A DNA stretch of 38,803 nt, taken from Chromatiales bacterium (GTDB lineage: Bacteria > Pseudomonadota > Gammaproteobacteria > Steroidobacterales > BM003). Position numbers and translations under genes: made by a program. Position 1 is the stretch's first letter, and each line of letters begins with the position of its first letter. The notes under the pieces were generated by a model. The model made no database searches. It was given only the letters and a program-made list of their open reading frames with translations, and was not told the origin of the DNA. The stretch is from positions 1 to 38,803 of the forward strand of contig PKUM01000324.1 in NCBI GenBank assembly GCA_002868855.1, given 5' to 3'. This document shows positions 7,635-34,290 of this stretch, piece by piece.

Positions 7635-8921
7635 AGATTTCTTCTTTAAGCAAGGAGTTCGCATCAGGTGGAAATCGGCACGCGGCGGTACCGTGTCGCC
7701 CCTGTCGGCGGCAGCAACGGTCATCCATTCTCCCACGCGCTCACCCTGGGGGAGCCGGTAGCGGGGGCGTACGCTCCAGGTCAGCTTCTGGCAAGAGCCC
7801 AGCGGCTCTTCCACCTGGTGGCGCTGTCCCGCCAGTGAGGTTCGCCGGTATAGCTGCTGACCGTCGGCCAGGATCTGCAGATCCCAGGCAATGTCGTCCT
7901 CGTCGATCTCGGGCGGGGAAGCCAGGTGCCTGTCGTCCCCCAGCAAGGTGAAATCCCAGGCCAGCTCGGGAGTGAGGGTGTTGAGTTTTGCCTGCTTGAA
8001 GTCGGCATAGGATTCAGTGGCGACCGGCTTCAAAACGTGCCGCACCTCAAGCAGCACGAACAGGTTCTGAAAAATGCGTTCGCCGATACGAATCTTGGCA
8101 AGTCGCAGATGCTCGCGCCAGGCCTCGCCGTTGTTGGCCGTCCAACTTCGCATCGAGCGCGTGTCATAGGAACCATAGACCTCGTGGTACAGGGGTTCGC
8201 CTCCGGGCAGGCGCAGAAGCTCGACTTCCACCGATACTCCCAGGCGGCTGTGCTCATTGACCTCGGCGCTTATCTCGAGGATCCGGATATTGAGCAAGGC
8301 ATCGGCGTCGATCTCGGAAAGGGTCGTATCGGCCGCTGGAGTTCGCAGAATTTCACCGGTCACACCGTCAAGCTCGGATAGGTGCTTCTGGATTTCTTCC
8401 GCGAGCAGGACGTTGGCGACCTGCCCGTTGGCGGATGCGATCAGTGCGTCCGCGGCCTCTTTTTTGTTTTCCCGCTGTTCGGCTTCGACCGCGCCGGCGA
8501 CACCGCCAACGGTGGCGGCCACCGGCAGGATGATCGGCAGCATGAGAATATAAACGATGGCCCCTTCGCCGCTTCCGTCCGGGGACAAGGCGGCGTCCAC
8601 GCCGGCGGCAACCCCCTCGGCTACCTCGTCGCCGGTCTTGCCATACTGGCTGCCGCTGGCAATGAATGCTATCCCGGTGTCACCGGGTGCAATGGCCACC
8701 CGTGTAATTGCTGCCCGCTTCTCTTCAGACATGTGGCTGCTGAAATCGCGGTACATGGTGGACGGGTGTGCGGGCTTGACTATCAGCGGTTGGCAGCCGG
8801 ACAGTGCCAGCAAGCAAGCGGTCATGGCCAGCACCAGAGCCTGGCGTAGCCTCGTGATTGCCTTTCCGGACGGGACGCACCCGGGGCAGAGGATTCCTTG
8901 GTTTTGGGAAGGCGTCTGCAT
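7629..8921 (-). CDS. Hypothetical lipoprotein
   Basis: 430 aa ORF with lipobox LLALSGC; no family recognised; overlaps the start of the downstream lipoprotein gene, suggesting coupling. Confidence 0.7.
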   Translation of the reverse strand: MQTPSQNQGILCPGCVPSGKAITRLRQALVLAMTACLLALSGCQPLIVKPAHPSTMYRDFSSHMSEEKRAAITRVAIAPGDTGIAFIASGSQYGKTGDEVAEGVAAGVDAALSPDGSGEGAIVYILMLPIILPVAATVGGVAGAVEAEQRENKKEAADALIASANGQVANVLLAEEIQKHLSELDGVTGEILRTPAADTTLSEIDADALLNIRILEISAEVNEHSRLGVSVEVELLRLPGGEPLYHEVYGSYDTRSMRSWTANNGEAWREHLRLAKIRIGERIFQNLFVLLEVRHVLKPVATESYADFKQAKLNTLTPELAWDFTLLGDDRHLASPPEIDEDDIAWDLQILADGQQLYRRTSLAGQRHQVEEPLGSCQKLTWSVRPRYRLPQGERVGEWMTVAAADRGDTVPPRADFHLMRTPCLKKKSS

Positions 8922-9158
8922 GCCAATCTCCTCGTCCCGGTTTGATACCCGTTTGCGTGGCCAGATTGTTCGACCGGGGCCGGTCGATATTTCTGCTTCT
9001 GGCTAGATGGAGGGGATTTTTGCGGCTAAGGGCCTCCGGGTCAACCAGGCCGGTTTAGCGCAGACCAGGCACGACATCCATATTCTGCGGGCCGTTGATC
9101 CCGAATATGAAGCGCCGATCAACAATCTGCTCGGTTACCTGATCACCACCCGGATCGC

Positions 9159-9250
9159 GACGGGACCGCGCTGACCGACACAGGCCAGGTGCGCTGTGCG
9201 CTGAAGACGCGCTTCCGCTACGGCCCAACGCGCCTGATCTTCGAACCGTG
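9159..9250 (+). pseudogene. IS91-family (Y2) transposase fragment
   Basis: DGTALTDTGQVRCALKTRFRYGPTRLIFEP resembles the conserved C-terminal stretch xxLTPxGxVRYxLKTPYRDGTTHVIFEP of IS91-type transposases. Confidence 0.6.
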
Positions 9251-9369
9251 GGGCTCTGTCGCACGGTCGTCTGGATAGCGCTTGGCGATCGCCTCGCCAT
9301 TAAACACGAGGCAAACGGGCTCGGTCACGATCCGCTTCATCCACAGGAACGACACGCCTTCCTCCACAC

Positions 9370-9453
9370 GTCAGCCGAGTTCGCGTGCCCGGATCATGCT
9401 GCTTCACCGCCGCTACGATCTGCTTCACCGAATACCTCTTGCGCTTCATTTTG
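9370..9453 (-). pseudogene. IS3-family orfA N-terminal fragment
   Basis: Minus strand reads MKRKRYSVKQIVAAVKQHDPG..., typical of IS3-type orfA N-termini (MKRKRFSxEQIxxxLKQ). Confidence 0.5.
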
Positions 9454-9690
9454 ACCTTCTCCTTCCGGGATCAGAGTCTGTCAGAAATCACATCCTCCGT
9501 GGACCAGTTCTCGGGGAGTCGCTCAAAGTCGGACACGCCGTCGAGTGTTTTTCGGCTGCAGCTCAGATTTCGCGGACGATACGAATAGCATGAGGAACGC
9601 AGGATTTGCAGCTGGGCATCATCCGCGTCAAGTTCTAATTGGGATACCGCGGCGCAAAAGCGCCGCGGCGTGTGATGAATGCCCGCAATA

Positions 9691-10077
9691 TTAAGGTTGA
9701 ATTGGGCACTTGAAGTCAGCGTCGCGTACCCGTGTGATAGTTACGAGACCCGAGGCCTCCGCATCCAGGACCATCTGCTCCGAAGTCAACAGGTAGGGCA
9801 CCGCTTCAGCCTGCCACATCACAACATTAACGGCCCACTTGCCACCGTGATAACCCTTGTCGCCGGGGGCCACTGCCGCTACAGGCAACTGCCCCTCGAC
9901 ACCACCCATGATCGGATAAATGGGATCGCGACCCTGCTTGGGTGCCGCCGCCGGCGGGACTACGGTGCGAACCACAGCACCGTCGTAGTACAACTGTCCG
10001 AATGGAGGCTCGGCCTGCAGGGATTGGGCAGTTATCAGGGCAAACAGCGCCCCGGCAATTAACGTAATCGTTTTCAT
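9691..10077 (-). CDS. Hypothetical secreted protein
   Basis: MKTITLIAGALFALITAQSLQA signal peptide; start chosen at 10077; no family recognised. Confidence 0.65.
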   Translation of the reverse strand: MKTITLIAGALFALITAQSLQAEPPFGQLYYDGAVVRTVVPPAAAPKQGRDPIYPIMGGVEGQLPVAAVAPGDKGYHGGKWAVNVVMWQAEAVPYLLTSEQMVLDAEASGLVTITRVRDADFKCPIQP

Positions 10078-10611
10078 TTGGTCTTCCTCGCGTGAGTGTT
10101 GATTGGTTTGAACAGATACCCCTGTCGAAACGAAACAACATGGGCAGCGCATGAACCATCATGAGTGGCAAATATCACGAAAGGATCACGGGTAATTCAC
10201 GTTTGATTCACTTTCGGAATTTGCCAGCTTGCCTTTCTGACAAAGAGACGATGGGGAGACGATCTAAACCGCTCCCAATTGTGGCTTCGATTTGGCGTAC
10301 GGAGAGATTCTGGGACGAGCTTGTTCGCAATCCATAACAGATCCGATTTGTCTGTAAAGGGTTACTAACCTGACCTGCCCCCTGCTGCAGTATCACGTTA
10401 TTCTTAGCAGAGCCGTCATTTTAAGGGCCCCTCAAAAAACAGAATCTACTAGGTTCAACTTGGTACGGAAATCAGGGCGCAGGTCACTTTTGCGTTTACG
10501 TCATCCGTCAGCAATAAGACAAGCATCTTTGACAGTAACGTAAAGTGAATCTCTTGATTTCGCTGGCGCCGCATCAGATTACTGCTAGCATCAAATAATT
10601 GTTGATTCCGC

Positions 10612-11805
10612 ATGGAAAGAGCCACGGTGAACGAATTGGCGGGCCACCTGAATATTCCAATGATCCTTGGCGTGTTGTTCCTTGTCGGGTTAGCCGCCGA
10701 TCTGATCGGCCGATACACGTTCCTGCCTCGCGTAACGCTCCTGCTCCTTGCCGGTCTTTCGCTTGGTTCGTCCGGCTTCTCTATCCTGCCGGAGCTTTTC
10801 ATTGAAACCTGGTTTCCAACACTAACGACCATTGCACTCGCGTTTATTGGATTCTTGCTAGGTCAGCAACTTTCCTCCTCGGCGTTGCGCGAGCATGGCC
10901 TGAAGATTGTGATCATCTCTGTCTGCAAAGTACTGGGAGCATGGTTAGCGGTCGGACTGGCGCTTTGGCTGGTCGACGCGCCAATAGTTATTGCTGCTCT
11001 TCTTGCTGGCGTGGCGCCGGCAACAGACCCGGCTGCCACTTACGATCAGGTTCGAGAAACAGCTGCAAAAGGTGAATTCGCCGAAACGCTGCTCGCAATC
11101 GTTGGTATCGATGACGTGTGGGGGATAGTGATATTTGTTGCGATGCTGGCGCTTGCAAGGCTTGCCGGCGCCGAGCTGGTATCCGATGCGAGCATCCTGT
11201 CGAGCCTTGCTGACCTTGGCAAAAGCATTGCTCTAGGAGCGATTCTGGGGGCGCCGATGGCCTATCTCACGGGCCGGGTCCGCCGTGGAGAGCCGACGAT
11301 GGTAGAGGCGATCGGTTTCGTCCTGCTGGGTGCAGGCCTTGCAGAGTGGTTTGAGCTATTGCCCATTGTGACGTCCATGGCAATGGGCATTACCGTTGCC
11401 AGTCTTGCGTCTCATCACGATCGTCCGTTTCATGCTATTGAGGGCATCGAGTGGCCGTTCCTGGTCTTGTTCTTCGTTCTCGCGGGCGCCTCGCTTGAAC
11501 TGAATGCACTGAGCTCAGTAGCGGGATACACAATTCTTTACGTTGTAGCCCGATGCGCAGGAATATATGCCGGCACTAGAATTGGCAGCATATTTGCGAA
11601 CGCAAATTCGCAGCTTAAATCCTTCCTGGGACTCGCGCTGTTTCCTCAGGCCGGAGTCGCGATAGGAATGGCCTTATTTGCCGCGCAGAGATTTCCCGAA
11701 TATGGAAACGTCGTTCTCACTGTTGCCGTGGCTTCGACAATTATCCTGGAGACGATTGGCCCGATAATTGCTCGCCAAGCGATTCGTGCTGCGGGCACTA
11801 CGTGA
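10612..11805 (+). CDS. Cation:proton antiporter (Na+/H+ exchanger-type membrane protein)
   Basis: 397 aa polytopic protein; PRVTLLLLAGLSLG, ALLAGVAPATDPAAT, TLLAIVGIDDVWGIVIF motifs. Confidence 0.9.
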   Translation: MERATVNELAGHLNIPMILGVLFLVGLAADLIGRYTFLPRVTLLLLAGLSLGSSGFSILPELFIETWFPTLTTIALAFIGFLLGQQLSSSALREHGLKIVIISVCKVLGAWLAVGLALWLVDAPIVIAALLAGVAPATDPAATYDQVRETAAKGEFAETLLAIVGIDDVWGIVIFVAMLALARLAGAELVSDASILSSLADLGKSIALGAILGAPMAYLTGRVRRGEPTMVEAIGFVLLGAGLAEWFELLPIVTSMAMGITVASLASHHDRPFHAIEGIEWPFLVLFFVLAGASLELNALSSVAGYTILYVVARCAGIYAGTRIGSIFANANSQLKSFLGLALFPQAGVAIGMALFAAQRFPEYGNVVLTVAVASTIILETIGPIIARQAIRAAGTT

Positions 11806-11954
11806 AACTTTAGCGCGCCTGCGTAGCTCAATGATGCGTAGGTCGGCGCATTTGAGCAGGAGACATACCAATGACTATCGAGTACAGAGACATCGGCCTC
11901 AAGAAACGCCAAGACCTTGCGCGCGATTGACTCAGTTTCGGAGGCGGAACCAAC

Positions 11955-12735
11955 GAAAAGGTTCTGACAACTTAATGCTCCCCGACCGCAGATTTTCGCA
12001 TTCTCGTTTCACGCCGCAGCCGATGACTAATTCCTGAACGCAGCTTCCCTAAGCGTTCGGTAATGCGAGGCTTTGATCAAGTGACGAGCCAAGTTGAACA
12101 GGTTGTAAACGGTTGCATGGACACTCAAGAATTTGCCGGCCTGTTTTGCCGACTGCAAACTTCGCATCCCACGTTCCCGCACCCTGGTTGGTGCGTGCGA
12201 TTGTTCTACTCGATTGTTGGCATATTGGGTCATAGCGTGAATGGACTCGGGGATCAGTTCACGATGAGCGACGCCGTAACTTCGCAGTTTAACTGTAACG
12301 ATTCGCCTGGGTTCGTCGCCATGGCTTCTCAGAAACCGCTTAAAGAGGCGCTTTGCAGCGGCGCCATCCCTGCGGCTTTGAAGAAACACGTCCACCACGT
12401 CTCCGTCTTGGTCGACCGCGCGCCACAAATAGTACTGCTTGCCGTTGATCTTGACGAAGACTTCATCGATAAAAAATGTATCGCCATATCCTTGATGCTT
12501 GCGCTTCAGTCGCTTGGCGCATTTGGAACCGAAATTGATACACCAGAGCCGAATGGTTTCGCAGGACACGACAATCCCGCGCTAGGCGAGTAGATCTGCT
12601 ATTTCCCGGTGGCTAAGATTGAATCGGAAATACAGCCAAACTGTGTAGCTGATGACCTCTGCCGGAAACCGGTGTCGTTTGTAGGTGTTCATCCGTGAAG
12701 TGGCCACCATGGGAGGTTAAGTTGTCAGTACCCGT
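11955..12735 (-). mobile_element. IS6-family insertion sequence, transposase with in-frame stop
   Basis: MNTYKRHRFPAEVISYTVWLYFRFNLSHREIADLLA*RGIVVSCETIRLWC...DTFFIDEVFVKINGKQYYLWRAVDQDGDVVDVFLQSRRDGAAAKRLFKRFL... Ends GGTTCTGACAACTTAA (left) and TTAAGTTGTCAGTACCC (right) form imperfect terminal inverted repeats. Confidence 0.85.
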
Positions 12736-12848
12736 CCACTCGTAGCGGACGTTTTTTTCCTGATATCGTCACATCTCCAAATTTTCAGTTATTCCCTAGG
12801 AGAATATTTTTCAAAAACCGAGTGGTGAGTTTCGAAGGTCGAGCTCGC

Positions 12849-12868
12849 GCCCAATCTGGGCTTTTTTT
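12849..12868 (+). terminator. Short rho-independent-like hairpin
   Basis: GCCCA-ATC-TGGGC followed by TTTTTTT. Confidence 0.4.
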
Positions 12869-13550
12869 ACGCCCAGCTGATCCGTCACGGCAACCGCTTC
12901 ACGTTCGGAGTCCGCCGATTACATTCTTCTTTTTGGCATGAAGCTCCTTCACGGCCTTTATCGGCCTTTTCGTAGGCACCCGCGATATCTGGGGTTAACT
13001 CCTACAGGAACCCAGTGTCATGGAAGCTTTCTAATTGGCCTGTATCCTCAAACCGCATTGCGCCGTAACTTGACATAACGAAGGGTCGGTCTAGCCTTAG
13101 GGAGTAATAGGAAGAACGCCCCCTAAAGCAGGGAACTCGCACATGAGCGCTGGGCATTACGCTGGATTTCTCCCGCGGTACTTCATTGTCGGTCCTCCGA
13201 GCCAAATTTGTTTGCGCGACCGAGTATTGCGTCGTGTCGCAATGGAACTGCAGACGGCGTTGAATCACTCATATCGAATCCCGAATTTCACTTGCGCACG
13301 ACAATGCCGGGTTACTAACCTGACACGGAGGCCGATATCGCTTGAAGTAGGATTATTGCATTAGAGCTAGCGCGGATTGACGTCAACAGCTATCAGACAT
13401 GTAGAGAGGACTTCCGCGGCTCGGCCAGAGACGTAAAAAAACGTAAATAGTCTGCAGACGACTCCTAAAGCTGGAGGGCCGAGATCGTCCATGAATTTGC
13501 CCAGCACGACGCTATTTAGAACGATACGAGCAGTTTAGAAGGAGTAGATA

Positions 13551-16500
13551 ATGGCAGGCGACAACGAACTGGGCATCCCAAAAGCCATTCGCACCGCGCT
13601 CGCATCGGGCAATACCGAACGCATCCTCGAAACAGTTGGAGATCTCACGGCTGAAGACACTCGACTTCTCGAGTCAGTACTCGGTCGGGATGCCGTCAAG
13701 GGCATCAAGCGAAAGGCTCGACGAGGCCGCGCGCGGGCCCTCGGAAAGGTCGTGGTAACCCATGGTATCACCGGCTCCGAGCTGGCATCAGTAGATACGT
13801 CCGGGGATGAAGACAAGATCTGGGTAAATCTTTTCCGACTGTTCAATGGCCGCATCGATGACTTGCGGATGGATCCGGCGGGCGGCAGTAAGATGGTTGT
13901 GCGCGTCGAGGGAATTCGAGTGGAATATCTTCCACTGATTGTCGAGCTATCGAGTCGCTGGGACGTACTTCCGTTCGCCTACGACTGGCGCGAGAACATT
14001 GACAAATCGGCGGCTCGACTTGATTCGGCAATAGCCGATTGGGCCAAGGGGCAACCTGCACACATCGTGGCCCATTCCATGGGTGGACTCGTCGCCAGAC
14101 GTTTCATTCAGCATTTTGGACAACGCTGGAACTCGATGAATGACAGTGAAGGCAAGGGTACTGGTGGCCGATTGGTGATGCTGGGAACACCGAATCATGG
14201 GTCCTTCGCGGTCACCCTAATGCTCTCAGGCGCAGAGAAGTTATTGAAGTGGCTCGCAGCTCTCGACCGGCGGCACGACGCGAAGAAGCTATGCGAGATC
14301 ATCGATAGCTTTCACGGGTCCTATCAGATGCTCCCGTCGCCCCTCCTGAGTTTCGGCGACGATCGGCACAAGCTTGCAAAAAAAGCTAACTGGGGCGGGT
14401 TACCCGTAACACAGGCGCTGCTCGACCTCGGGCTAGAATTCCAAAAGCAAATTAGCTCTGTAATTGACCGTGAACGCATGATCTACGTCGCGGGTTATGA
14501 TCGAAAGACCCCTTGGCGCATCCAGGTCGATGCGGGGGGTAAATTCAAATACCAATACACCCTGAACGGAGACGGCCGTGTTCCCCATGAATTGGGGCTA
14601 CTCGAAGGCGTCCCGACCTACTGGCTGAACGAAACTCACGGCGCTCTGCCGCGCAATACCCGACTCCATTCAGGCATTCACGAACTTCTCCAGTCTGGCA
14701 CCACAGATGCCCTGGAATCCCGGCGCCCTCGTTCCCGAGCTGCACGTGACGCAGAGGCCACCTGGGAAAATGCCGAAGATTATTATGTCCTTTCGGCGAA
14801 GGAACGGGAGACACTTCGGTCGATTGGCACGCGCAATCGTGCGGCTCGGCCGGATGACATACAAGAAAACTTGGCGCTTTTGGAGAGTGGACTGCTTGGA
14901 GATTACCTCGGGGGCACCCCCTCTCGAACGCACGGCCCCCGTGGACGAGTCACGCCCAGCGCCGGTCGAACCTCCGCATCCGCGAAGGGTGCCTCTCGTA
15001 AGCTGCGCATTGAGGTCCATTGCGGCGATATCACGCGAGTCGAGGCCGATGTGTGCGCCGCAGGTCATTACATCGGCGTTGAGCCGCAGAATGCCGAACT
15101 CGCGCTTGATTGCGTCGTATCCGGCATTAAGCGCAGCGAGCTCAGCGACACTAGCCCGCTTGCTATTACCGGCCTAACGCGACGCGGCGCTATTAAGGGC
15201 GAACTCGGGGAGGTTCATTTCTACCCGTTCGCCGGGGACCACCATCGGAGACGACTGGCTGCGATCGCAGGTATGGGACTCATGGGGTCGTTCGGCCGCC
15301 GCCAGCTGGTGCGTCTCGCCGAGAGCCTTGCTAGCCAAAGCGGATCTCTGCCTGATGCAGAATCTCTCTGTATGGTCGTGATCGGTAGCGGCGTCGGAGG
15401 CTTGCGGACCCGCGTGGCCGTTGAGGCAATTTTGGAAGGGGTCCTGAATGCCATTTGTGACTGCGACGCCACATCCTGCATCAAGACCCTGATCTTCGTG
15501 GAGCTGCATTTCGGCAAGGCGCTCGAGGTGCAGGAGATACTGAAGACACACTCGAAAACGCTCAATGGGCGGACCGATCGCGTTCAACTCGAACTCGGTC
15601 GCCGACCGCGACGCGGCGGAGGAGCGAGACTGGGTCCCGATTTCGCCCTGGCATTGGCACTCTCTGGCCTGAGTCTCGCGACCGGCAAACATGGCCGGCC
15701 CGAAGACCGCCAGGCCGTCGCTACCATCGTCGATTCGCTCGGTCTGCCAGGTCGCTTTAAAGAACAGGTTACTGAGGAGATTGCGAAGCTGAGTGAGGCT
15801 GCAACCGAGGGCGAAAAGCGCATCGCGCCATCCGAGCTCGCACGAAAACTGAGGCTCGAACTTCGCCGCCGTGACCGAGCACCGCGCGACATTCCAACGC
15901 GCTTATCGGTCTCCTGGGACGGCAATAATGTGGTCGTTGCCGCGTTGACGGATGTCGCCGTTGTTCCCGAGCGGGCATCCGGCGTTCAAAAATCGATAGT
16001 AGACGAAGCGGTTCGGCGCATGGTTGACCCGGCTATCGAGACCATCGCGGACCTCGGACGCAGAGTAAATTTTCTTCTCCTACCGCGGGATTTCCGCGAC
16101 ATTGTCCGACTGACTAATGGTCCAGTCGTGTTGGAGGTCGATCGGGAGATGGCGAAGGTGCACTGGGAAATGATCGCCCAGGACGCGACTCGCGGCACGG
16201 ACGGCAAAGCGCTCGGACTGAGCGTACAGGTAGCACGACAGCTTCGAACCGCTTACAGCACGGTTCCAGCCGCGGAACTTCCGCGAAAAGGATCGCTGAC
16301 GGCATTGGTAATTGGCGATCCCGGCGATCCCGCTCTGGGGCATGACTTGCCGGGAGCGCGTCGCGAGGCGATGGAGGTTGCTGCCTTTCTCGAAAGCTGC
16401 GGGGTCAACGTCACCCTGATGATCGGCGCACCCGGGTCCCCTTCCGAGCAATTCAAAGGTGAAGCGGTTCCGAGCGCGTCTATGTTCGATGTTCTTGGTG

Positions 16501-17138
16501 CACTGATGGATGGAGGCTACGATGTCCTGCACTACGCCGGGCACGGCGACTTCGACGCCAAAGACCCTTCCGGAAGAAGCGGATGGCAGTTCAAGGGTGG
16601 GCTGCTAACGGCGCGTGAACTCGAACGGGTGGATCTGGCTCCCCGCCTCGTCGTAGCGAACGCCTGCCTGTCCGGACTCATCTCCAACAAGTTGGCCGGG
16701 GCAAGGGCAACACAGTGCCTGGACGCGGACCTGCTGCCCGGCCTGGCAGACGAGTTTTTCCGTCGCGGCGTGCGCAACTACGTCGGCACAGCCTGGGAGG
16801 TTGACGACCTCGGTGCAATCGAATTCTCCCGCACTCTGTACACGTCCCTGCTTATGCGCGGCGACACGCTGGGTGCAGCAATGCTCGCGGCGCGCCGGGC
16901 GCTGAAGGAGCAGGAGCAGAGATTCGACGCGTTGTGGGCAGCTTATCAGCACTACGGCTCCCCTGGATTTACTCTGCCCAGTTCGTCCAGCGACGCCGCA
17001 AACGCGGCGGCGGCATCCACGAAGCGGCCTTCGACAAAACGGGGCCGCAAGGAAACCACACCGATTGCCACGCCCACCGCACAGCGTCGAAAATCCTCGC
17101 AGCCCAAAAGCAAGCGAACCGCACGGAAGAAAAAATGA
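13551..17138 (+). CDS. Lipase (LCAT/PGAP1-like) + macro/M17N-like + CHAT protease multidomain protein
   Basis: 1195 aa; RBS AAGGAG upstream. HGITGSEL, AHSMGGLVARRF (Ser176) and LGTPNHG in the N-terminal alpha/beta hydrolase; IEVHCGDITRVEADVCAAGHYIGVEP in the middle; C-terminal DVLHYAGHGDF (His998) and LVVANACLSG (Cys1039), the CHAT His/Cys dyad. Confidence 0.9.
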   Translation: MAGDNELGIPKAIRTALASGNTERILETVGDLTAEDTRLLESVLGRDAVKGIKRKARRGRARALGKVVVTHGITGSELASVDTSGDEDKIWVNLFRLFNGRIDDLRMDPAGGSKMVVRVEGIRVEYLPLIVELSSRWDVLPFAYDWRENIDKSAARLDSAIADWAKGQPAHIVAHSMGGLVARRFIQHFGQRWNSMNDSEGKGTGGRLVMLGTPNHGSFAVTLMLSGAEKLLKWLAALDRRHDAKKLCEIIDSFHGSYQMLPSPLLSFGDDRHKLAKKANWGGLPVTQALLDLGLEFQKQISSVIDRERMIYVAGYDRKTPWRIQVDAGGKFKYQYTLNGDGRVPHELGLLEGVPTYWLNETHGALPRNTRLHSGIHELLQSGTTDALESRRPRSRAARDAEATWENAEDYYVLSAKERETLRSIGTRNRAARPDDIQENLALLESGLLGDYLGGTPSRTHGPRGRVTPSAGRTSASAKGASRKLRIEVHCGDITRVEADVCAAGHYIGVEPQNAELALDCVVSGIKRSELSDTSPLAITGLTRRGAIKGELGEVHFYPFAGDHHRRRLAAIAGMGLMGSFGRRQLVRLAESLASQSGSLPDAESLCMVVIGSGVGGLRTRVAVEAILEGVLNAICDCDATSCIKTLIFVELHFGKALEVQEILKTHSKTLNGRTDRVQLELGRRPRRGGGARLGPDFALALALSGLSLATGKHGRPEDRQAVATIVDSLGLPGRFKEQVTEEIAKLSEAATEGEKRIAPSELARKLRLELRRRDRAPRDIPTRLSVSWDGNNVVVAALTDVAVVPERASGVQKSIVDEAVRRMVDPAIETIADLGRRVNFLLLPRDFRDIVRLTNGPVVLEVDREMAKVHWEMIAQDATRGTDGKALGLSVQVARQLRTAYSTVPAAELPRKGSLTALVIGDPGDPALGHDLPGARREAMEVAAFLESCGVNVTLMIGAPGSPSEQFKGEAVPSASMFDVLGALMDGGYDVLHYAGHGDFDAKDPSGRSGWQFKGGLLTARELERVDLAPRLVVANACLSGLISNKLAGARATQCLDADLLPGLADEFFRRGVRNYVGTAWEVDDLGAIEFSRTLYTSLLMRGDTLGAAMLAARRALKEQEQRFDALWAAYQHYGSPGFTLPSSSSDAANAAAASTKRPSTKRGRKETTPIATPTAQRRKSSQPKSKRTARKKK

Positions 17139-17199
17139 AAGTCGTCAAAAGTCTTGTCACATTCTCTGGCGACATCAGGTTTTAAAAGGAGACCACGCC

Positions 17200-18081
17200 A
17201 TGGCCATCATCACCCCTGACATAAACCGACAGCTGATCGAAGCAACGAAGTTGCCACCTCTGCCCCGACGCAGAAAAAGATCACTCGAGGATCAACCACC
17301 TGTCGAATTGAAGGACACCGATGCACAGACTCTTGTGGCGGGATCAGGCCTTATCGTGGCCGCCGAGAACGTACCGGCGCAGACGCGCGCGGACCTTATT
17401 AACTGCACCCTATTCGCGCAACTCGCCGCCACGGGCGATGTTCCCGACAGCAAGAAAATCATGCCTTGGTACGATGCGTACTTCCGTCGTCTCAGGATTT
17501 TGGGGTGGGCTCAGAGCGATTACCAGTTTCAAGACTACAAGTTCAAGGGGAAGCACGCTGAGGCGCATAAGGCGGTCGAGAAGGTACTAGCTGCGCTGCT
17601 TGGTCCACAAGCCGCAGCCATAGTCGTAATCCAGACCACCCTGCAGGCCCTCCAGGAAATGGACGAGAACAGCCCATGGCTGACATTGTTCGACAAACAA
17701 AGCAAGGTTGAAACCGCGGCTAGATTCCAGGTAGCAACTGCGCAGGTAGGGCCGGGCGGCCTCCTTCAGACGGCATTGGTCGCGTTTCATCTGAAGGCAA
17801 GGGCAAAGTTCACACAGGTCCTGTTTTTCAAGTTCTCATCCAGTTCCACCAGCCTAAAATATGCATCCGGCATCGCCACGATTCAGGAGTCTGCCCTGAA
17901 TGAAACTCGGGAGCTGATAGCTGATCAGCTCGCTCGCTACCGCCGGCAGATGGTGGCGGATGTAAAGTTCCCGCCGCTGCGCGTCGCGACGACACAAGCC
18001 GTGCGTATAACTCGGGGGCGCGCTGCGACCAGAAGCGGCGCTCGGGCTTTCAAGCCACGGGATGTGCTCACGACGCTCTGA
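17200..18081 (+). CDS. Uncharacterised 293 aa protein in CHAT/TIR cassette
   Basis: ATG at 17200 preceded by AAAAGGAGA; 61 bp after the CHAT stop, same strand; no family recognised. Confidence 0.8.
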   Translation: MAIITPDINRQLIEATKLPPLPRRRKRSLEDQPPVELKDTDAQTLVAGSGLIVAAENVPAQTRADLINCTLFAQLAATGDVPDSKKIMPWYDAYFRRLRILGWAQSDYQFQDYKFKGKHAEAHKAVEKVLAALLGPQAAAIVVIQTTLQALQEMDENSPWLTLFDKQSKVETAARFQVATAQVGPGGLLQTALVAFHLKARAKFTQVLFFKFSSSSTSLKYASGIATIQESALNETRELIADQLARYRRQMVADVKFPPLRVATTQAVRITRGRAATRSGARAFKPRDVLTTL

Positions 18082-18312
18082 TGGCGAATGGCGTTCTCGC
18101 AAGCCACACAACGAGATGACGATGTTGTCTGTACGTCGTCAGGGGGTTCCCGGTGCAGACGCGATAACATATAAATCCTGCCCCGATACGAGCCCTGGCC
18201 ATCTGACGCGAAGGGAGCCCATCGACTAGAATCGTAACCAGACTATCGGGGCTATCTTCCTACAAAGAGCATTCGTCGAATTCTGGCGGGCCGATTGGAA
18301 AGGACATCTATT

Positions 18313-19680
18313 ATGAGCAAGATTAAAGTTTTTCTGAGTCACAAACACGAATTCAGGGAATCAGCCAAGCGTCTGCAATGGTCTTTAGGAAGACTAGCGC
18401 CCGACCGGTTCGATTTCTTCGCGTCCTCCTCGGACATCAAACCTGGTGACAATTGGCGCGAACGAGTGGAGCGTGAATTGGAAAAAGCGGATTGGCTAAT
18501 CGCTTTGACCACACAATGCGGGGACAAATCTAAGGAATGGATCGGGCATGAAATTTCAACGTTTTCTGCAAACATTCGGACAGATTTGAAGGACGAGTCA
18601 GTAACACCTACGGAGAGGCGATGCATCATCATTCACGACGAAGGGGAGCGTCTACATGTCCATGATAATCTCCAGCAGTTTCCGGCCACAAAAGATGGAT
18701 GCCAGGACTTTCTTCGCCATCTTCTTTCCTCGGACAGAGGATGCTACGGGTTCAACCCCTACGTCGGTAACGACATCTCGGAGCTCAAAAAGGAGGCGGC
18801 AAGGCTGTGGAATATCCTAGCTGCGAGTCCGCCCCCGTACGTGTTGCTACCTCGGGGAAGTTTCTTTTTGACGCCCGAGAACGAGAAGAGGCTCGATGAC
18901 GACGTAATTGATGACGCCATAAGCGTGACGCTAAATCGAATGGCTGCGGCTATGCACAACATCAACTTGCGTGAGGAGTCCAACCGGTGGGAAGGCACGT
19001 TCGGCGATCTGCGGAATTTCATGAGTGAGAACCAGAGAATCTGGATACCTCTGATGGCGTTTCTGCTTCGAAAAGTTCTACGTCAAAAGAAAATTCAGAA
19101 AGCATTCATTCTCTATCCGGATTACAGTGGAACCAATTTCTATAACCCAGTAATTGGCGAGTTGTATGTCTATCCTTCGGGAGACATGTTGTTCGAGCTT
19201 GTATATTTTCCAGTGGAGACGGCATTCGGTACTCGGCATTTAAGCCAGAGAGACCAGCTGTTTCATCTCATTGTCCTTAGCATACGCTCCCAGTGGCGCC
19301 TGATAGATCGGTACACAGAAGAGGTTACGAATCTCGCGGCGAAAGAGCGAAGTCGACTGGTGGATTTGACTGACGAAGATAAAAGTAAGTGGGTTGATCT
19401 AAAAAAACGAATCCGGATCGATGTGATGAAGATTCACAGTGAATCTGCAGCTCGCGGAATTGTGAATCCGGAGAAAATACTGAGCATGTTTAGCGAACCT
19501 GAAAGAGAGGCGGTTGAAGACGAGTTCCACGCTTGGATGAAGGTGATAGGGCAAATAGAGGAAGATGAGGAAAACATCCAGGCAGCAAAGCTTGAAAGAA
19601 ATCTAGAGGAGGCGGCACGAATCGTTACGGGATTACTTAAGAAGTATGCCGCGCTGTTGGCTTCCTCGAAGATTTGGTAG
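18313..19680 (+). CDS. TIR-like domain protein with unrecognised C-terminal region
   Basis: MSKIKVFLSHKHEFRESAKRLQWSLGRLAPDRFDFFASSSDIKPGDNWRERVERELEKADWLIALTTQ...EWIGHEISTF: TIR betaA, BB-loop-like and Glu-containing region. Confidence 0.85.
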   Translation: MSKIKVFLSHKHEFRESAKRLQWSLGRLAPDRFDFFASSSDIKPGDNWRERVERELEKADWLIALTTQCGDKSKEWIGHEISTFSANIRTDLKDESVTPTERRCIIIHDEGERLHVHDNLQQFPATKDGCQDFLRHLLSSDRGCYGFNPYVGNDISELKKEAARLWNILAASPPPYVLLPRGSFFLTPENEKRLDDDVIDDAISVTLNRMAAAMHNINLREESNRWEGTFGDLRNFMSENQRIWIPLMAFLLRKVLRQKKIQKAFILYPDYSGTNFYNPVIGELYVYPSGDMLFELVYFPVETAFGTRHLSQRDQLFHLIVLSIRSQWRLIDRYTEEVTNLAAKERSRLVDLTDEDKSKWVDLKKRIRIDVMKIHSESAARGIVNPEKILSMFSEPEREAVEDEFHAWMKVIGQIEEDEENIQAAKLERNLEEAARIVTGLLKKYAALLASSKIW

Positions 19681-19734
19681 GACCAGTGCGATGTGGCCGT
19701 TGTCCCTCCTATTTATTCATCTGGGTTGATTCTG

Positions 19735-20726
19735 TGGACTTCCCCCCGTATTGATGACACTTCCGGACCATGATCCGAGCATAGGAGGAAGTGATATGAG
19801 CAGTCAATGATACAGTCCCGGGTTCAAAGACGAAGCCGTTCGCCAGATCGTCGATCGGGGATATTCCGTTGCCGATGTATCCGAACGATTGGGTGTCTCC
19901 GCACACAGCTTGTACAAGTTGGTGAAGGCCGTAAAACCAGACAAGTCGGAAGAACAGGCTGCAGCCCTGATCGAAGCCTGTAGCGAAGTCTTAAAGCTTC
20001 GCGCACAGTTGAAGCGTACCGAAGAGGAGCGCGATATCCTAAAAAGGCCGCCAGGTACTTTGCTCAGGAACCCGAGTAAAGTACCGATTCATCAACGATC
20101 AGCGTGGCCAGTACAAGACGATAACGTTGTGCCGAGTACTCGGCGTTTCCCGCAGCGGCTTCTGTCAGTGGTTGAGCAAACTGCTCTTGGACCGCGCGAT
20201 TGAAGATCAACGGTTGCTTGGGTTAATCCGAGCGTCATACACAGCCAGTGGTGGCGTTTACGGCGCGCCGCGCATCTTCCTTGATCTGCGAGAGACGGGT
20301 GAGACCTGTGGCAGGAACCGGGTGGCTCGGATCATGAGGGTCAACAAAATTCAGGCTTTGCGCGGCTACAAGGCGCCCCGCCACATCGTCGGCCGGCCGT
20401 CTATCATCGCTCCCTATCGTCTGCAGCGCGAATTCACCGTCGACTGTCCTGATTAAGCCTGGGTGACTGACATCACCTACATCCGAACCTGGCAGGGCTG
20501 GCTGTATCTCGCCGTCGTCGAGTCTTTCTTTAGTAGCTTGAAGAAAGAGCGGATCAAAAAACGTATCTATAAACGCGAGATCTAGCCCGAGCTGATATCT
20601 TCGATTACATTGAAGTGTTCTAAAAACGACAACGCCGGCACAGTCGTTTTGGCGGTGTCAGCCCTGAGGTGTTTGAGCAAGCCTCATTTTGAGAGCTCGG
20701 GGTGTCGTCAGATCGGGGGAAGTCCA
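19735..20726 (+). mobile_element. IS3-family insertion sequence, degenerate and internally deleted
   Basis: orfA MSSQ*YSPGFKDEAVRQIVDRGYSVADVSERLGVSAHSLYKLVKAVKP; orfB LCRVLGVSRSGFCQWLSK...YGAPRIFLDLRETGE...VDCPD*AWVTDITYIRTWQGWLYLAVV joined directly to ESFFSSLKKERIKKRIYKREI. Ends TGGACTTCCCCC and GGGGGAAGTCCA are inverted repeats. Confidence 0.85.
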
Positions 20727-20729
20727 CTC

Positions 20730-31524: not shown

Positions 31525-34290
31525 CTATCGGCGATCGGCGCGAGGACGCAGCAGCAAAACCTGCCCCGGATAAATAAGGTCAGGGTCGGTAATGGTCGCG
31601 CGATTATCCGCGTAGATCTGGCGCCACAGCAGCGGGTCACCGTAAATCCGCTCGGCGATTCGCCACAGGGACTCGCCACGCAACACGTGGTACTCCAGGA
31701 CGGATCGGCCAGCTCCATCGCTGACGGGTGCAAAGATTCTCTGACCCGGGTAAATACGGTCCGGGTTTTCGATAAAGGTCTCGCCTACGCCGATCTCGTA
31801 GGCGGCATTATTCCGCTCCAGCAACACCGGCCAGTTTTCCGGGTCGCCGGTCAGGCGTCGCGAGATGCCCCACAGCGTATCGCCCTGGCGCACGGTATAC
31901 ATCAATGCCGGTTCGCCCGGACCCGCAGCAGCCGGAGCGCCGGTCTCGAGATACGGGCCCAGTCGGTCGATTATTAACGCGTCAATATCCGGATCGAACG
32001 GCCCCATCGCGTTCAACATACCGAGCAGCTCCATGCCGGTTTCGTAGTCGCCACCGTTAAACTTCACCTCGGCGGCCAGTGCCAGCGCTTCTGCCAGGTC
32101 GCTGTGCCGCCCGCCCAGGCTCTCCGCTGACAACGCGGCCGGATTGGTCTCAACGAGTTCGTACAGCTCGGGTATGACTACTTCCGTTTCGCCCCGCTGC
32201 AATCCGGCGATTGCGGCATCGATGACATCTGTTGGCGCCACCGGCGCAACCGGAGTGGGCAATTGCTCTTGATCTATGACCTCTACAGGTAGCCGCACAT
32301 CTTCATCGAGCTCCTTGTCCGGACCGGGGACCACAATGACGGGCGCCTCGACTTCGGGCTCAATGTCCGGAACGGGGCTCACGGTGACGGGTACCTCGCC
32401 CACGTCCCGCGCCCCGCCCATAAATTGCGTGACACCGACCGCAATCGCAACGAGAACAGCTACCGCCACACCTATCCATACTCCTGGTCGGCCGGAACTC
32501 TTCGCAGCGGTTGCCGCGCCGGAGACCGTGGTGCCAGGCGGCGGCCGGGTGGCGGACACCGCTACTGCTTGCGGCTCGGCGGCAATGACCCCCGCGGGCG
32601 GTTGCGGCTTCTCAGCCACCGCAGCGCGCTGCGGCCCAGTCTTGTCTTCCTCCACCGTCGCCGGCGCCATATCGAAAAGACGGCCGTCGGGCGTCCGCAT
32701 ATGCAGCGCCGGTGCGCCCCACTCCACCTCGTAACCGCGCGCATACAGAAATGCGCGCGCCGAGTTCAGCGCGGCGTCCACCGGCTGACCTGATGCGAGA
32801 TAGCGATAGAAATGCCGCGACAGCGCGACCGCCGCTTTGTCAGGTATCGGAAACTGCATCGCCACGACTGCCGGAATGCCGCGCCGGATCAGGCTCTGGG
32901 CCACGCCGCCAAACGGGTCGCTGCGCGACGCAGTCGCACCCATGCAACTGTTCAGGAAAACCAGCCGCAACGAGGTCAGGTGATTCCGCAGCAGCATCGC
33001 GAGCTGGCGTCCGGCAATCACGTCGGACGTACCCGGGACCGCATCCGACTCCAGTACCAGCACACCCTCATCGCCGGAGAAATCGCCATGGCCGATGAAG
33101 TGCAGAGCGTGCGGCCGGTTTTTCAGTAGCGCATTGTCGAGGCTTTCGAGCGTTGCGTGTTGCAGCCGTTCAATACGAACTGCACCGCTCGCGGTGAGTT
33201 CGTCAAGCGCCCTGTCGAGATGGGCAATTTCCTCTCCGACCTCCAGCCCGGGGCGGTCGCCGGGTGCCGCTACCGCGATCAGCAACCGCAATGGGCGCTC
33301 GGCAGCCAGGCTCGGCAACGGTTCGTCCACGTCGAGCCACCGGACCACCGGTTTCATCCGGTCGGAAAACAGGAAGTCGTCCTTGGCCGGGCTGTACAAA
33401 AACTCCCAGGGAAGCCGTGCAAGCTCAGGCGCATCGGTGGTATTAATCACAAACCGCACGCCCTCGCCGCGTTGCGGATCGATGGTGCGCAGGCTGTCGG
33501 CCAGCCGCCCCCCGAGCGCCGAGTCGAACAATGCCGAATACAATGCCTTGCCGGCCTCGCGCACGTCTTCGGGTCGCGGCAACAACGCATCGACATCGAC
33601 ACCACCGGTTGCGCGCCGCGCCGACCCTTCGATCTGCCGCGCGTTTGCCCATAATGCGTTTTCGAGACCCGGGGCATCGAGCGACCAGGCATCCGGGTCA
33701 CCCGCTCCCGCCGGCGACTCGGGCACGGATATCGAATACCCACCTGCACCGCTCCCACCGAACCGCAACTGCACCGAGCGATACCGGACACCGCTGGACT
33801 CTGGTGGCGGTGCATCGACCGGCGCTGACGCAGCTGGCTGGCCTTGCGCTCGGGCCCGGTCCTCTACCTCTATAACGACCTCGGCGACCAGGTTTCCCTC
33901 GGCCTGCATCACGGTCAGCGAACGCAGGTAAGCCGGCACGTCTTCGATGGGCGTGCTGACGAGTTCCACCGGCAGCACATGCCATCCAGGCGTTGGCCAC
34001 TTCCGGCTCGCGAGTTTCAGCTCGGTACGCGAATAACGCCCGTCGGCGACGGATTCCGGCGAGATCAGGAAAACAAAGAGATCGGACTCTTCGATCGCGT
34101 TACGAATGTAATCGTCGAAGCTGCGCCCGGCCGGCAGGTCCTCCCTGTCGAAAAACACTTCATGCCCAAGCGCCTGCAGTCGACAGCAAAGGTCTTCAGC
34201 GGTCGGCCTGTGGTCAGAGGCGTAGGACAGGAATATTTTCAAACCGGGCCTCGCAGTTAGCGGCCATACGGTTCGGAGTATAGCCAACAC
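31525..34290 (-). CDS. TIR-CHAT-transmembrane-LysM(x2) multidomain protein
   Basis: LKIFLSYASDHRPTAEDLCCRLQALGHEVFFDREDLPAGRSFDDYIRNAIEESDLFVFLISPESVADGRYSRTEL (TIR); LHFIGHGDF (His401) and LVFLNSCMGA (Cys449) (CHAT); VWIGVAVAVLVAIAVGVTQF (TM); MYTVRQGDTLWGISRRL and EYHVLRGESLWRIAERIYGDPLLWRQIYADN (LysM). True start may be a few codons downstream of 34290. Confidence 0.92.
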   Translation of the reverse strand: MLAILRTVWPLTARPGLKIFLSYASDHRPTAEDLCCRLQALGHEVFFDREDLPAGRSFDDYIRNAIEESDLFVFLISPESVADGRYSRTELKLASRKWPTPGWHVLPVELVSTPIEDVPAYLRSLTVMQAEGNLVAEVVIEVEDRARAQGQPAASAPVDAPPPESSGVRYRSVQLRFGGSGAGGYSISVPESPAGAGDPDAWSLDAPGLENALWANARQIEGSARRATGGVDVDALLPRPEDVREAGKALYSALFDSALGGRLADSLRTIDPQRGEGVRFVINTTDAPELARLPWEFLYSPAKDDFLFSDRMKPVVRWLDVDEPLPSLAAERPLRLLIAVAAPGDRPGLEVGEEIAHLDRALDELTASGAVRIERLQHATLESLDNALLKNRPHALHFIGHGDFSGDEGVLVLESDAVPGTSDVIAGRQLAMLLRNHLTSLRLVFLNSCMGATASRSDPFGGVAQSLIRRGIPAVVAMQFPIPDKAAVALSRHFYRYLASGQPVDAALNSARAFLYARGYEVEWGAPALHMRTPDGRLFDMAPATVEEDKTGPQRAAVAEKPQPPAGVIAAEPQAVAVSATRPPPGTTVSGAATAAKSSGRPGVWIGVAVAVLVAIAVGVTQFMGGARDVGEVPVTVSPVPDIEPEVEAPVIVVPGPDKELDEDVRLPVEVIDQEQLPTPVAPVAPTDVIDAAIAGLQRGETEVVIPELYELVETNPAALSAESLGGRHSDLAEALALAAEVKFNGGDYETGMELLGMLNAMGPFDPDIDALIIDRLGPYLETGAPAAAGPGEPALMYTVRQGDTLWGISRRLTGDPENWPVLLERNNAAYEIGVGETFIENPDRIYPGQRIFAPVSDGAGRSVLEYHVLRGESLWRIAERIYGDPLLWRQIYADNRATITDPDLIYPGQVLLLRPRADRR

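Follow-up and report, generated by a model that had tools for sequence, protein, structure and literature searches.

Organization of the locus

The Chromatiales contig PKUM01000324.1 (Gammaproteobacteria; GenBank assembly GCA_002868855.1), of which 38,803 nucleotides were analysed (hereafter the window), carries three co-directional genes on the forward strand: gene 1 (13551-17138, 1195 aa), gene 2 (17200-18081, 293 aa) and gene 3 (18313-19680, 455 aa). Gene 1 and gene 2, encoding a protein of the caspase-like CHAT family and a predicted pore-former, are separated by 61 bp, and gene 3, encoding a TIR protein, follows after a further 231 bp. An earlier reading made without database searches (the sequence-only reading) had described a CHAT multidomain gene, an unknown gene and a TIR gene in the same direction, with good ribosome binding sites (RBSs) for the first two. 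The open reading frames (ORFs) and domains agreed with that description, and gene 3 also had a plausible RBS (ggaaagga before the ATG at 18313). ORFs in high-GC loci were called with a simple script.

Gene 1 combines a lipase-like hydrolase, a macro-like module and a CHAT domain

The lipase-type alpha/beta-hydrolase part of gene 1 lies at 13746-14750 (+; about residues 66-400), and matched the Pfam models LCAT, DUF7379 and Abhydrolase_6 at E-values of 2e-4 to 1e-3, under their curated cut-offs. The CHAT domain (PF12770) at 16122-16961 (+; residues 858-1137) was matched far above threshold (E = 5e-28; 98.8 bits against a cut-off of 24). Ser176, Asp341 and His363 of the hydrolase and His998 and Cys1039 of the CHAT domain were invariant in an 11-member alignment, so that by sequence gene 1 is a member of the CHAT family with its His/Cys dyad intact and with predicted proteolytic activity. 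The sequence-only reading had recognized both of these parts but overlooked a module between them at 14988-15620 (+; residues 480-690), which resembles macro folds and Peptidase_M17_N and contains a GDIT motif. Structures were predicted for this module and for gene 2; both models were compared with the Protein Data Bank (PDB), and gene 2 also with a viral structure library. The model of residues 480-690 (pLDDT 71, pTM 0.77, from an alignment of four sequences) had as its top PDB matches the N-domains of leucyl-aminopeptidases and genuine macro domains, namely macroH2A, PARP9 macro 2 and YmdB (E about 1e-6 to 1e-5, probability 1.00), supporting a predicted macro fold.

Long-form relatives of gene 1 (about 1750-2000 aa) have an additional N-terminal DUF7379 hydrolase and, where scanned, C-terminal TPR-S/TPR repeats; gene 1 in the window is a short form that lacks both of these ends. 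A hydrolase and a CHAT domain in a single frame were found in 12 of 369 sampled genomes of the same class (about 3%). No PADLOC model was found for gene 1 or gene 2, and relatives of gene 1 matched the SAVED_CHAT or BovA models weakly, through the CHAT domain.

Gene 2 is predicted to adopt a Cyt-like fold

Neither gene 2 nor its relatives had a convincing family match in Pfam, which accords with its earlier description as unknown, but its predicted structure does resemble known proteins. The AlphaFold model (33-sequence alignment, pLDDT 81, pTM 0.77, with the last 40 residues at low confidence) was compared with the PDB using Foldseek, and every one of the 13 top matches was to Cyt1A, Cyt2Ba, Evf or volvatoxin A2, with E-values from 1.1e-6 to 2.6e-3 and a probability of 1.00; the match ranked after them had E = 0.046 and a probability of 0.51. 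The order of structural elements in the model agrees with that described for Cyt1Aa, in which an N-terminal propeptide is followed by two helix hairpins flanking a central sheet and by a C-terminal helix (PMC7052140). From this model, we consider it very probable that gene 2 adopts a Cyt-like fold. In a viral structure library, matches to gene 2 were weak, with low TM-scores.

An Arg/Pro-rich linker at 17245-17325 (+; residues 16-42) separates the first helix from the core of the protein and may be a protease site. Such a linker was also present in the gene 2 proteins of loci L053 and L055; it was weaker in L087 and had fewer Arg residues in Sinorhizobium. Cyt1Aa is a protoxin from which propeptides are cut off (PMC7052140), and cleavage of the linker would mirror this step by analogy. 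The neighbourhood had also suggested that gene 2 might be a divergent gasdermin. This was rejected, as no gasdermin was among the 50 best PDB matches; PADLOC and Pfam likewise returned no gasdermin match. Inspection by eye revealed no signal peptide in either gene 1 or gene 2.

Genes 1 and 2 recur as a pair

Gene 2 relatives were gathered blind to their neighbours, by tblastn on plasmids and a pattern scan of GTDB genomes; none was found in viral contigs. Gene 1 and gene 2 were adjacent in four lineages, represented by the window, a gammaproteobacterial metagenome-assembled genome (MAG; L053), Ramlibacter and a Burkholderiales MAG (the last two comprising L087 and L055). In the window, L053 and L087 the pair is co-directional, the two genes lying 61, about 130 and 13 bp apart, respectively. 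All four belong to a single gene 2 clade of seven members (support 100/100), together with L004, L011 and L054. L004 and L011 are both from Sinorhizobium and are 90% identical to each other. Beyond the CHAT-linked members, the gene 2 relative in L004 adjoins a GDSL-amidase-M15 protein and a Trypsin_2 protein, and six of the seven clade members are adjacent to a protease. On the tree, the protease-adjacent label required five changes compared to 8.3 when labels were shuffled, and 2 of 500 shuffles reached so low a count; the nearly identical Sinorhizobium copies contribute to this result. Since such gene 1 relatives occur in about 3% of the sampled genomes of the class and three further adjacencies were found among proteins of 43-53% identity, the recurrence of the pair appears to exceed chance by far. 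Genes 1 and 2 very probably form a functional unit. In L053 (2213-9744, +), a Peptidase_C14 caspase, a long-form gene 1 relative and a gene 2 relative lie in a row.

Protease association of the entire gene 2 family was considered and rejected, as it holds mainly in this one clade; outside it we found single cases, with CHAT in L051, Peptidase_C14 in L088 and a subtilase in L065. Members of the broader family, for which Pfam has no model, are often found two in tandem as divergent paralogues, in genomes that include Streptomyces, cyanobacteria and Burkholderia (L059, L060, L061, L067-L070, L072, L074, L075 and L079-L081). In two unrelated genomes (L062, 5274-9699; L070, 4864-10518), a gene of this family adjoins an nSTAND1 gene with Trans_reg_C. 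The L004 arrangement (7908-13949, +) is located on a Sinorhizobium fredii plasmid, where the gene 2 relative is followed by the GDSL-Amidase_3-M15 gene and then by Trypsin_2, near ABC-three-component and DUF4231 genes.

TIR, SIR2 and caspase genes beside gene 1 relatives

Gene 3 encodes a TIR domain (TIR_2, E = 3e-9 in Pfam) with Glu80 as the likely catalytic residue, followed by an unknown C-terminal region. An alternative TTG start at 18295 would lengthen the protein from 455 to 461 aa. No relatives of gene 3 were found in viral contigs, phages or plasmids. TIR genes lie directly downstream of gene 1 relatives in L048 (4-bp overlap), L130 (37 bp) and L133 (4-bp overlap), and a SIR2-pYEATS gene does so in L007 (4-bp overlap); Peptidase_C14 genes lie 7-86 bp upstream of gene 1 relatives in L053, L126 and L128. 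These partner genes match PADLOC ThsA, ThsB or caspase models, the SIR2 protein of L007 matching ThsA. Several other gene 1 relatives have unrelated neighbours (LigB, GNAT and M20). A TIR gene beside gene 1 is thus a recurring theme, and the TIR, SIR2 and caspase partners, together with the recurrence of the gene 1-gene 2 pair, fit an uncharacterised conflict system.

The TIR partners found elsewhere differ from gene 3. Its membership of the system is unproven, because the exact trio was found only in the window and the sole full-length relative of gene 3 (TIR plus C-terminal region, in L091) stands alone; a conserved three-gene set was therefore rejected. The sequence-only reading had proposed an uncharacterised three-gene immune system and suggested looking for the trio in unrelated genomes: what recurs is genes 1 and 2, a pair that PADLOC does not name, and not the trio. 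That the TIR takes part at all seems to us nearly an even matter, leaning slightly towards doubt. Two further arrangements were observed. In L007 (6722-12184, +), from Rhizobium leguminosarum, the gene 1 relative, SIR2-pYEATS and Endonuclease_NS lie in a row, and in L053 a TIR-FGE gene is located about 4.5 kb downstream of the pair on the other strand.

A possible protease-gated cell-death module

Genes 1 and 2 resemble a switch for cell suicide, gasdermin-like in its working and built on a different pore-former. We tentatively propose, with slightly less than even confidence, that the two genes make up a cell-death module of the abortive-infection type in which a protease gates a pore-former. 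In such a module, the CHAT protease of gene 1 would probably be silent until an infection signal reaches the macro-like module or some other part. Activated CHAT would then cut gene 2 in its Arg-rich N-terminal linker, and the processed Cyt-fold protein would insert into the membrane, killing or stalling the cell; the lipase-like domain may act on the membrane as well, by preparing or damaging it. The neighbouring TIR protein is a plausible NAD-cleaving source of an ADP-ribose-type ligand for the macro module. What the analysis shows is the domain composition, the intact catalytic residues, the Cyt-like and macro-like folds of the predicted structures and the recurrence of the pair; gene 2 cleavage, pore formation, signalling and an antiphage role are all steps that we infer. 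An intracellular conflict role of the module is likely, and release of gene 2 by the protease could go either way. Proteolytic release of effectors is itself established in bacterial immunity (PMC12799240). The sequence-only reading had counted three lethal activities (lipase, protease and TIR); this missed the likely executioner, the Cyt-fold gene 2, and the lipase and CHAT domains could be activators instead.

Several observations weigh against this proposal. TM-scores between gene 2 and Cyt-type structures were modest (0.26-0.48), and therefore point to distant kinship or a shared fold; the PF01338 profile had no match at E <= 10 in the window's genome and three others with relatives, and the predicted relation to Cyt is structural only. 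The pair in L055 is divergent in orientation, L054 lacks a protease, most of the broad gene 2 family is not protease-linked and most gene 1 relatives are without a gene 2 partner. The solitary context of the gene 3 relative in L091 counts in the same direction.

The locus might instead hold two independent neighbours, namely the pair of lipase-CHAT and Cyt-like proteins and a TIR NADase acting by itself, which happen to share an IS-flanked site, and we regard this as evenly balanced. The L091 relative and the presence of the pair without an adjacent TIR in L053, L087 and L055 favour it, as do the wide gap before gene 3 and its lower GC content; TIR or SIR2 genes abutting gene 1 relatives in L048, L130, L133 and L007 argue for a link, as do the shared direction and good RBSs of the three genes. 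A different role for gene 2 is also conceivable. Evf, with the same fold, binds palmitate in a hydrophobic pocket (PMC5390079), and gene 2 could be a lipid-binding, Evf-like adaptor or sensor that reports membrane damage or brings gene 1 to the membrane, leaving the lipase and CHAT domains there as effectors. Gene 1 does hold two potential effector activities and gene 2 is also found without proteases, but its top structural matches are pore-forming cytolysins and the Arg/Pro-rich linker of the CHAT-linked copies resembles a cleavable propeptide, making an adaptor unlikely.

Finally, gene 2 could act outwards as a toxin against competitors, predators or hosts, with gene 1 serving to process it or to protect the producing cell. 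Those Cyt and Evf proteins that have been characterised act as toxins or virulence factors (PMC5390079), and many distant gene 2 relatives occur in contexts without recognised defence genes. This would, however, sit poorly with the apparent absence of signal peptides, with CHAT, macro, TIR and SIR2 domains that are typical of intracellular conflict systems, and with the location of L004 and L010 near ABC-three-component and restriction-modification genes; we consider it quite improbable.

Relation to known systems

Among pore-formers that proteases release in immune cell death, gasdermins are the best known. Bacterial gasdermins are reportedly encoded beside CHAT, caspase-like or trypsin-like proteases. 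As in these bacterial gasdermin systems (Johnson et al. 2022, cited in PMC12881547), a small predicted pore-former adjoins a protease in the loci described here (CHAT in the window, L053, L087 and L055; trypsin in L004), whereas gene 2 is Cyt-like and the protease forms one protein with a hydrolase and a macro module. Protease-gated effector release is the known element, and a different executioner fold is the new one. With Cyt delta-endotoxins, Evf and volvatoxin A2, gene 2 shares its predicted fold, element order and an N-terminal propeptide-like segment; unlike them, it lacks a PF01338 match and lies next to a gene for a caspase-like protease instead of in a toxin cluster.

In Thoeris, the TIR gene neighbours an effector gene whose product has a macro-type module in type II and is a caspase-like protease in type IV; by analogy, the macro module of gene 1 could plausibly receive a ligand made by a TIR or SIR2 enzyme. 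The locus likewise has a TIR gene near a protein with a CHAT domain and a predicted macro fold, which may or may not bind such a ligand, and differs in its hydrolase-macro-CHAT fusion and separate Cyt-like protein. Membership of Thoeris was rejected, as gene 3 scored 20 bits against ThcB4 (cut-off 220) and 15.7 bits against PADLOC ThsB. In nuclease-protease and caspase-nuclease (canu) pairs, a pro-effector gene is recurrently found beside various protease families (PMC12799240); a separate effector gene by a protease is common to both, though the effector there is a nuclease and here a predicted membrane-active protein. MoxR-vWA ternary systems pair a caspase-fold peptidase with an alpha/beta-hydrolase (PMC7159879); here a single protein contains both, along with a macro module, and no MoxR, vWA or VMAP domains were seen in the locus. 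No named system in PADLOC or Pfam matched the gene 1-gene 2 module, and among the papers listed by literature searches of incomplete coverage, none joined Cyt-fold proteins or toxins with bacterial immunity or antiphage defence.

If correct, our proposal would mean that a second, structurally unrelated pore-forming fold operates under caspase-like and trypsin-like proteases, and that this logic was invented more than once. It would also suggest bacterial immune reuse of the Cyt fold, and add a system unrecognised by Pfam and PADLOC. We think it rather unlikely that the full chain holds, in which a TIR- or SIR2-made, ADP-ribose-derived signal reaches a macro/lipase/CHAT sensor that turns a Cyt-fold protoxin into a pore, as an undescribed death pathway. 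Such a pathway would follow a pyroptosis-like logic with an unrelated executioner and would give the Cyt-toxin fold an intracellular, self-directed role.

Flanking elements and a second TIR/CHAT gene

The sequence-only reading had placed insertion sequence (IS) elements on both sides of the trio, and terminal inverted repeats were found at each. The left, IS6/IS240-type element (11960-12732, -) has terminal inverted repeats at 11960-11975 and 12717-12732 and a transposase ORF at 12027-12569 with a DDE_Tnp_IS240 domain. The right element (19734-20727, +) is bounded by 13-bp inverted repeats (19734-19746 and 20715-20727), contains only short, fragmentary ORFs and is single-copy in the genome; its putative IS3-like label comes from the sequence-only reading. 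A second TIR/CHAT-type gene is located 12 kb from the trio (31525-34290, -) and encodes a 921-aa protein with an unusual fusion of TIR_2, CHAT, a probable transmembrane segment and two LysM domains.
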